Shown piece by piece: positions 22,196 through 44,238 of a DNA stretch of 64,000 bases. A model generated the notes under the pieces. That model did not search any database, had not been told where the DNA came from, and worked only from the letters and a program-made list of their open reading frames with translations. Both the position numbers and the translations under genes were made by a program. The stretch comes from Gemmatimonadota bacterium (GTDB lineage: Bacteria > Gemmatimonadota > Gemmatimonadetes > Gemmatimonadales > GWC2-71-9), in NCBI GenBank assembly GCA_009692115.1, contig SHZU01000001.1:132345-196344 (forward strand), read 5' to 3'. Position 1 is the first letter of the stretch, and the number at the start of each line of letters is the position of its first letter.

Positions 22196-22320
22196 GGGGA
22201 TCTAGCCGGGCGGCGCGGCCGGCCGGCACGGCGGCGGCCACCAGGCCACCACCGGGAGCAGGGTCGCCGCCGCCGGATCGCTCCGTCGGTCGCCTGCTCA
22301 GCATCGACAATGATTCCAAC

Positions 22321-22341
22321 CCGAGTGCCGAGTGCCGAACC
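22321..22341 (-). repeat. Stop-adjacent short tandem repeat, copy 1
   Basis: Reading on the bottom strand, the beta-lactamase-fold gene's TGA is followed by GG and then TTCGGCACTCGGCACTCGG. This is a copy of the CTCGGCA-based repeat found at seven other places in the window. Confidence 0.85.
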
Positions 22342-25045: not shown

Positions 25046-25070
25046 CTCGGCACTCGGCGCTCGGCATTCG
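25046..25070 (+). repeat. Stop-adjacent short tandem repeat, copy 2
   Basis: TAG of the 57-aa gene, then GG, then CTCGGCACTCGGCGCTCGG and a decayed unit CATTCG. It fills most of the gap to the convergent aminotransferase gene. Confidence 0.85.
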
Positions 25071-28272: not shown

Positions 28273-28328
28273 CTCGGCACTCGGCACTCGGCACTTGGCG
28301 GCCGAGTGCCAAGCGCCGAGCGCCGAGT
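28273..28328. repeat. Stop-adjacent short tandem repeat, copy 3 (with hairpin)
   Basis: Two bases after the metallopeptidase TAG, CTCGGCA units run forward (28273-28300) and then reappear inverted (28301-28328). The arms 28287-28299 and 28308-28320 pair over 13 positions with one mismatch around an 8-base loop. It could act as a terminator before tRNA-Lys. Confidence 0.8.
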
Positions 28329-28347
28329 ATATATTTGCGCCTCGTTT

Positions 28348-28420
<73 letters not shown>

Positions 28421-28424
28421 TTTT

Positions 28425-28457
28425 CTCGGCACTCGGCACTCGGCACTCGGCACTTGG
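28425..28457 (+). repeat. Short tandem repeat copy 4, directly after tRNA-Lys
   Basis: Four CTCGGCA heptads and a decayed CTTGG unit begin four bases (TTTT) after the tRNA 3' end. This is the longest uninterrupted array in the window. Confidence 0.88.
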
Positions 28458-31405: not shown

Positions 31406-31408
31406 GGG

Positions 31409-31429
31409 CTCGGCACTCGGCGCTCGGCG
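31409..31429 (+). repeat. Stop-adjacent short tandem repeat, copy 5
   Basis: TAA of the DUF1080-like gene, then GGG, then CTCGGCACTCGGCGCTCGG. It occupies the gap to the convergent rnhB stop. Confidence 0.85.
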
Positions 31430-31439
31430 AGGGGCAGCG

Positions 31440-32087
31440 TTAGAGGCCGAGGCCGAGTTGGGCGATGGGGGCGAAGGTGCGACGGTGGTGGCGGGTGGGG
31501 CCGTGTTGTTCGATGGCCTGGAGGTGGGCCTCGGTGCCGTAGCCGCGGTTGGTGACCCAGTGATACGCGGGGTGGCGGCGGGCCAGGTTCACCATCAGGC
31601 GGTCGCGGATCGTCTTGGCGATGATCCCGGCGGCTGAGATCGAGACGCAGAGGGCGTCGCCGTCGATCAGGAACTCGTGGGCGAAGCCGACTTCGGGCAT
31701 GGCGAGCCCGTCGAGCAAGACTCGGCACTCGGGTTCTCGGCACTCGGGTTCTCGGCACTCGGCGTAGAGGCGCAGGATGGCGCGGCGCATGGCTAGGGCG
31801 GTGGCGCGGCGGATGTTGAGGCGGTCGATTTCTCGGACCGAGGCGGCGCCGATTCCGATGGCCAGGGCACGCTTGCGGATCAGGAGGACGGCTTTGTCAC
31901 GTTGGGGTTCGGAGAGGGTCTTGCTGTCGCGAATGCCGGCTAGGCGTTTGACGTCTCGGGGGAAAACTACGGCCGCGGCCACCACTGGACCAGCCAGGGG
32001 ACCGCGGCCTGCTTCGTCAACGCCCAGAAGGAGCTTGCCCGCTTGCCACGCGATCCGCTCCAGCTTGAGCGTCGGGCCGGCGGGCAT
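31440..32087 (-). CDS. rnhB: Ribonuclease HII with a repeat-derived insertion
   Basis: Removes ribonucleotides from DNA and RNA from hybrids; 215 residues. The active-site segments are present: LLGVDEAGRGPLAGPVV at about 21-37, IRDSKTLS, LLDGLAMP and GDALCVSISAAGIIAK. Between residues about 108 and 122, where the family has a short variable loop before the strand with the third Asp, this protein has ECREPECREPECR. That stretch is encoded by the same short repeat found after stop codons. It is the last gene of the ffh-rpsP operon. Confidence 0.94.
   Translation of the reverse strand: MPAGPTLKLERIAWQAGKLLLGVDEAGRGPLAGPVVAAAVVFPRDVKRLAGIRDSKTLSEPQRDKAVLLIRKRALAIGIGAASVREIDRLNIRRATALAMRRAILRLYAECREPECREPECRVLLDGLAMPEVGFAHEFLIDGDALCVSISAAGIIAKTIRDRLMVNLARRHPAYHWVTNRGYGTEAHLQAIEQHGPTRHHRRTFAPIAQLGLGL
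31721..31763 (-). repeat. Short tandem repeat inside rnhB, copy 6
   Basis: Three units of the 15-base sequence CTCGGCACTCGGGTT (top strand), the last one cut short. The 15-base period keeps the rnhB frame and encodes Glu-Cys-Arg-Glu-Pro repeats. Confidence 0.9.
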
Positions 32088-42649: not shown

Positions 42650-42699
42650 TGCCGGGAATGTTGGGGGGGGCGGACCTCGTTAGGCAAGGGGGGGACGGG

Positions 42700-42720
42700 C
42701 TCGGCACTCGGCGCTCGGCG
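42700..42720 (+). repeat. Short tandem repeat, copy 7 (intergenic, divergent promoters)
   Basis: CTCGGCACTCGGCGCTCGG follows a GGG. This is the one copy not placed at a gene's 3' end; it lies between two divergent start codons and between long G tracts. Confidence 0.85.
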
Positions 42721-44219: not shown

Positions 44220-44238
44220 CTCGGCACTCGGCACTCGG
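44220..44238. repeat. Stop-adjacent short tandem repeat, copy 8
   Basis: CTCGGCACTCGGCACTCGG fills the gap between two convergent stop codons: the peptidase TAG is followed by GG and the repeat, and the next base begins the TAA of the purine phosphorylase gene on the other strand. Confidence 0.9.

Follow-up and report, generated by a model that had tools for sequence, protein, structure and literature searches.

Unrelated dispersed repeats of four genera lie in frame in the same loop of RNase HII

The rnhB gene of a bacterium of the Gemmatimonadales (Gemmatimonadota; genome G000) contains an in-frame array of a heptamer repeat that is dispersed through its genome. Three other genera of its family carry a dispersed repeat of their own, unrelated to that of G000, in the corresponding RnhB loop. 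In our judgement, the probable explanation is that a tolerant surface loop of RnhB has repeatedly captured small dispersed repeats in frame.

The rnhB array and its repeat family

In the window, i.e. the whole 64-kb stretch of DNA analysed, the following features are relevant here (coordinates, strand, description, evidence):

22318..22338, no strand, copy of the dispersed heptamer family, holds the other CTCGGCACTCGGGTT 15-mer (repeat search)
25046..25070, no strand, intergenic heptamer array (repeat search)
28273..28327, no strand, inverted pair of heptamer arrays forming a hairpin (-42.6 kcal/mol, z -7.9), directly upstream of tRNA-Lys (repeat search and fold)
28425..28454, no strand, heptamer array directly downstream of tRNA-Lys (repeat search)
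31408..31429, no strand, second family copy, ~3 heptamers, in the gap between the stop codons of rnhB and its convergent plus-strand neighbour (repeat search)
31440..32087, minus strand, rnhB, RNase HII of 215 aa, intact (ORF, Pfam, catalytic residues, AF2 model)
31721..31762, minus strand, in-frame array, 15-bp unit x 2.8, 7+8 form of the CTCGGCA heptamer (tandem-repeat call, frame)
42699..42720, no strand, heptamer array of the CTCGGCA family (repeat search)
44220..44238, no strand, heptamer array of the CTCGGCA family (repeat search)

According to TRF, the array inside rnhB is a perfect tandem repeat with a period of 15, 2.8 copies and 100% matches (unit CTCGGCACTCGGGTT), and it stands in the reading frame of the gene. 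It encodes ...LYAECREPECREPECRVLLDG..., its own coding being ECREPECREPECR. The coding strand reads GCC, then twice GAG TGC CGA GAA CCC and finally GAG TGC CGA, i.e. A-ECREP-ECREP-ECR, which confirms the in-frame Glu-Cys-Arg-Glu-Pro repeat of the original prediction. The unit is a 7+8 form of the CTCGGCA/CTCGGCG heptamer. That the array belongs to the same family as the intergenic arrays, as had also been proposed, is borne out by its exact 12-mer core CTCGGCACTCGG, for which we counted 231 matches in the 3.12-Mb genome versus 1 for a reversed-pattern control; the array is thus not a chance occurrence. Being a direct array of 42 bp, it showed no significant fold (z -0.9). Some other clusters of G000 are inverted arrays with strong hairpins (z -7.9).

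A 19-mer of the CTCGGCA family is present in 62 copies here versus none in 40 relatives, five of them congeneric, and the family is therefore species-specific. Among the distances between units in G000, 7 dominates (204 close pairs), followed by 19. We read 309 kb of this genome in stretches around repeat matches (89% coding according to a simple codon-based caller) and found 65 clusters, of which 44 are intergenic, 9 extend over gene ends and 12 lie inside genes. A tandem unit of ~7 bp with many dispersed copies in one genome, mostly intergenic and depleted in coding DNA, is what characterizes STRR-like (short tandemly repeated repetitive) repeats, and the G000 family fits this description. 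Non-coding clusters are located at a median distance of 9 bp from a stop codon, and gaps between convergent genes are over-represented among them (18 of 49 versus 26 of 168 gaps). This preference for stop codons and convergent pairs, seen window-wide and in L178-L217, suggests a terminator or 3'-end role of the intergenic arrays. The 15-bp tandem form was found in rnhB only (genome search allowing up to one mismatch); the single CTCGGCACTCGGGTT 15-mer in the array at window position 22318 is the only other one in the 309 kb read. The tRNA-Lys gene (28347-28421) is flanked by heptamer arrays on both sides (window 28273-28454), the upstream one being the very stable inverted-pair hairpin listed above.

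Besides the rnhB array, 11 clusters are located inside called genes (about ten genes), in frame and with plain 7-bp units; all in-gene heptamer copies of G000 are in intact frames. They occupy linkers or domain interiors of conserved enzymes: the arrays lie between the two Aldedh domains of an aldehyde dehydrogenase, between the dimerisation and DbpA domains of a DeaD-type (DEAD) helicase, and between domains II and III of phosphomannomutase, where phmmer alignments with PDB phosphomannomutases show a gap of ~9 residues. Further hosts are NuoG, an S15-type peptidase, a nucleotidyltransferase, a TonB-dependent receptor, a ferredoxin-NADP-reductase-like protein, a putative esterase without Pfam match and, with two arrays, a malonyl-CoA-synthetase-like acyl-CoA ligase. 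In the latter gene (L215:1345-2823) the two arrays are separate, both in frame and of opposite orientation, and in L181:5442-7763 the linker joining two aldehyde dehydrogenase domains consists almost wholly of a forward and an inverted heptamer array.

Plain 7-bp arrays can be in frame in these genes because three heptamers (21 nt, seven codons) give stop-free codons on either strand: the same heptapeptide is read in all frames, LGTRHSA in forward and SAECRVP in reverse direction. Such freedom from stops on both strands is common: at this GC content it applies to 72% of random heptamers. As the arrays are open in every frame, capture needs only a total length that fits the frame, and a 15-bp period is no condition for sitting inside a gene. 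The proposal that the repeat was tamed by switching its period from 7 to 15 is therefore unsupported and unneeded, given the 11 in-gene clusters with ordinary heptamers. The most plausible reading of the 15-bp form is that a 7+8 pair was duplicated locally once it had been captured, its length being incidentally a multiple of three. The repeat may have moved or grown within the gene, as originally envisaged.

Position of the array in RnhB

The product of the host ORF has a Pfam RNase_HII domain (E 9.8e-35), and its closest solved relatives are the RNase HII enzymes of E. coli and T. maritima. In an alignment of 26 proteins the catalytic DEDD residues D24, E25, D126 and D144 are invariant, i.e. 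the catalytic segments on both sides of the repeat are intact as had been supposed, and domain and residues together identify the protein as an RNase HII. The array fills a length-variable loop ahead of the catalytic VLLDG strand. This loop is 9 residues longer than that of the E. coli enzyme and exceeds those of the same genus by 4-5 residues; the loops of close relatives are shorter and unrelated in sequence. The AF2 model (pLDDT 93.5) agrees with the known RNase HII fold and consists in this region of a helix (residues 84-110), a loop (111-120) and a strand (121-126) ending in the catalytic D126. It places the repeat in the loop (block pLDDT 89), at the N-terminal end of this strand. Judging from the length of the strand, the repeat would be ~20 A away from D126, at the opposite strand end. 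As this position is distant from the catalytic Asp, the enzyme presumably tolerates the repeat, and we expect that it works with the altered loop.

The same loop in related genomes

We compared the loop DNA of more than 120 RnhB loci, both within the order and outside it, plus 20 from a class-wide search; the genomes are mostly MAGs. A short loop is the commonest state among the RnhB loci compared. In the tree of family f1, a clade of 30 rows (support 98/92) has loops of 7-31 residues versus 5-6 in the other f1 rows. Four genera of this clade, represented by G000, G109, G031 and G007, carry a dispersed repeat of their own genome in the RnhB loop. In G109 the loop is built of octamers CTACCGCC (123 genome matches, control 0). 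In the loop of G031, AAGGTCG heptamers are arranged as an inverted pair that folds into a hairpin (z -6.1); this heptamer has 21 matches in the G031 genome, including one in rnhB, and none in 31 other genomes searched. G031 is left out of the in-gene counts, as gene calls on 46 kb of its fragments gave wrong-frame proteins. In G007 (isolate WB-IL-12, contig JABFSM010000010.1), which shares an identical loop with L062, we found the palindrome GTCATTGCGAGGGGCCGGAGGCCCCGAAGCAATC (GTCATTGCGAGG...CGAAGCAATC), with 110 matches in the genome (control 0) and the rnhB copy at G007:C241:4799-4832. All four host genes encode an intact RNase HII according to Pfam. The captured peptides (ECREP, SKVEG/STFDL, PYRPTALPP and HCEGPEAPKQ) differ among the genera and are absent in congeners. 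Since the four repeats share no sequence relationship and their genomes sit on separate branches within the clade, the captures are independent.

The GTCATTGCGAGG palindrome of G007 also lies in frame in two other proteins (L243:2097-2130 and L255:2036-2069): in FtsK it precedes the alpha domain, and in a protein with a PSP1 domain it is located in the tail. Unlike the heptamer families, the CTACCGCC octamers are common to several genera (123 matches in G109, 68 in G019, 29 in G104 and 23 in G108), which suggests transfer or an older origin of this family.

Two further long loops turned out differently. The loop of G006, considered as a degenerate GTCATTGCGAGG element, has a sequence that is unique to rnhB in that genome, and the loop of G013, considered as a dispersed GAGCCTGTCGAA repeat, gave a single match; both candidates were dismissed. 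As these loops are not genome-wide repeats, long loops arise in other ways too. The TTCCCCGC-like loop of G012 looks old, as its genus mates have similar loops. The 20 loops from the class-wide search are variable in length (17-29 by anchor count), and inspection by eye revealed no tandem or palindromic array among them.

Origin of the captured repeats

According to our proposal, a small species-specific dispersed repeat, usually adjoining stop codons, would have been captured in frame between the long helix and the strand carrying Asp126, where it would have replaced or extended the native loop; comparison with congeners at ~70% identity points to such an insertion in rnhB. The 15-bp (7+8) unit may then have been duplicated locally. 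We infer that capture is rare per site, that it survives where frame and fold permit, probably as a neutral change, and that local slippage may follow. Template switching, slippage with gene conversion, or a mobilising enzyme are candidate routes for the spread of the repeats. Regarding the last, mobilisation by a RAYT transposase was considered and set aside, as no Y1_Tnp was found in G000, G007, G031 or G109; all four are draft genomes, in which such an absence is not final.

Within the family, different genome-specific repeats were captured by this loop on at least three further occasions, which makes it a recurrent landing site. This raises the question if it is also a preferred one, attracting unrelated repeats across the family beyond what tolerance would explain, for example through a coupling of their spread to rnhB transcription or to the structure of the DNA or RNA there. 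We consider this doubtful. A rough null, relying on a home-made gene caller and on assumed numbers of in-gene copies, gave P ~0.0015 for rnhB being struck in at least 3 of the 29 other genomes of the clade at an assumed ~22 in-gene copies per genome and 2900 genes, and P 0.008 at 40 assumed copies. These values are suggestive of rnhB hits beyond plain tolerance, but not decisive, because the copy numbers are assumed and the survey was confined to rnhB.

Alternatively, slippage of the loop's native codons might have created the array in situ, its likeness to the intergenic heptamer being fortuitous. Three perfect 15-bp units are indeed typical of local slippage, and the loop of the congener G003 contains CCTGCCGAATCG, which is similar to a unit. 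Nevertheless, we regard such an origin as improbable, as the 12-mer of a family with 231 matches in the genome is contained unchanged in the unit, and slippage alone leaves unexplained why three other genera have a genome-specific repeat in the same loop. Still less probable is that the inserted loop has acquired a function, e.g. as a partner-binding site. Its frame is conserved and, to judge from the title of entry 7UWE, the RNase HII of E. coli belongs to a transcription-coupled complex, docking on RNA polymerase; the peptides found at this site are, however, unrelated among genera and missing from congeners. Although tandem repeats are error-prone in assemblies, an assembly or binning artefact can practically be dismissed in view of the 518-kb contig, the 97%-complete genome in 23 contigs, the intact rnhB frame, the in-frame copies in about ten other genes and the analogous captures in independently assembled genomes.

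Comparison with known repeats

In-frame capture as proposed here is reminiscent of the Rickettsia palindromic elements (RPEs), which are repeats inserted in frame into conserved genes (Ogata et al. 2000, cited after PMC10969869). In both cases a dispersed, genome-specific repeat is found in frame in unrelated conserved genes, and the G000 arrays conform to RPEs in this respect. RPEs are palindromes of ~150 bp coding for a conserved peptide, whereas our repeats are tandem arrays of 7-8 bp units, as in the direct array in rnhB, or a 34-bp palindrome; furthermore, here one loop was struck by unrelated families in different genera.

Many-copy, mostly intergenic heptamer arrays are known as STRR, with the units GGGGA(C/T)T in Nostoc and GGGAATC in Xanthomonas; these are often located within 50 bp of stop codons, and 7-32% overlap genes (PMC4692102). 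For the heptamer TAACTGA of the Beggiatoaceae, copies inside genes were suggested to persist mainly at the ends of proteins (PMC4679880). The family described here differs in unit sequence and in its many intragenic copies within conserved enzymes, beyond their ends. The G007 element, a short palindrome in 110 copies, resembles REP/REPIN sequences; REPs, however, are mobilised by RAYT, for which the draft genomes of G007 and G000 yielded no Y1_Tnp, and heptamer arrays are not REPs. Tandem repeats in Borg ORFs likewise add peptide segments to proteins, but these are extrachromosomal and of independent origin at each site (PMC9879509), whereas here one family is dispersed through the chromosome. 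The literature searched yielded no report on Gemmatimonadota and none in which one loop is filled again and again by unrelated repeats, and a search for CATTGCGAG returned nothing relevant among the best matches.

Implications

The four genera represent natural, independent trials of one protein loop by unrelated genomic repeats, and G000 in addition has enzymes with many peptides derived from one heptamer. Both offer a handle on the spread of heptamer repeats that lack a known transposase, and on the frequency with which selfish or neutral repeats give rise to new protein segments outside Rickettsia. For a census of repeat captures, the RnhB loop could be used as a ready site.
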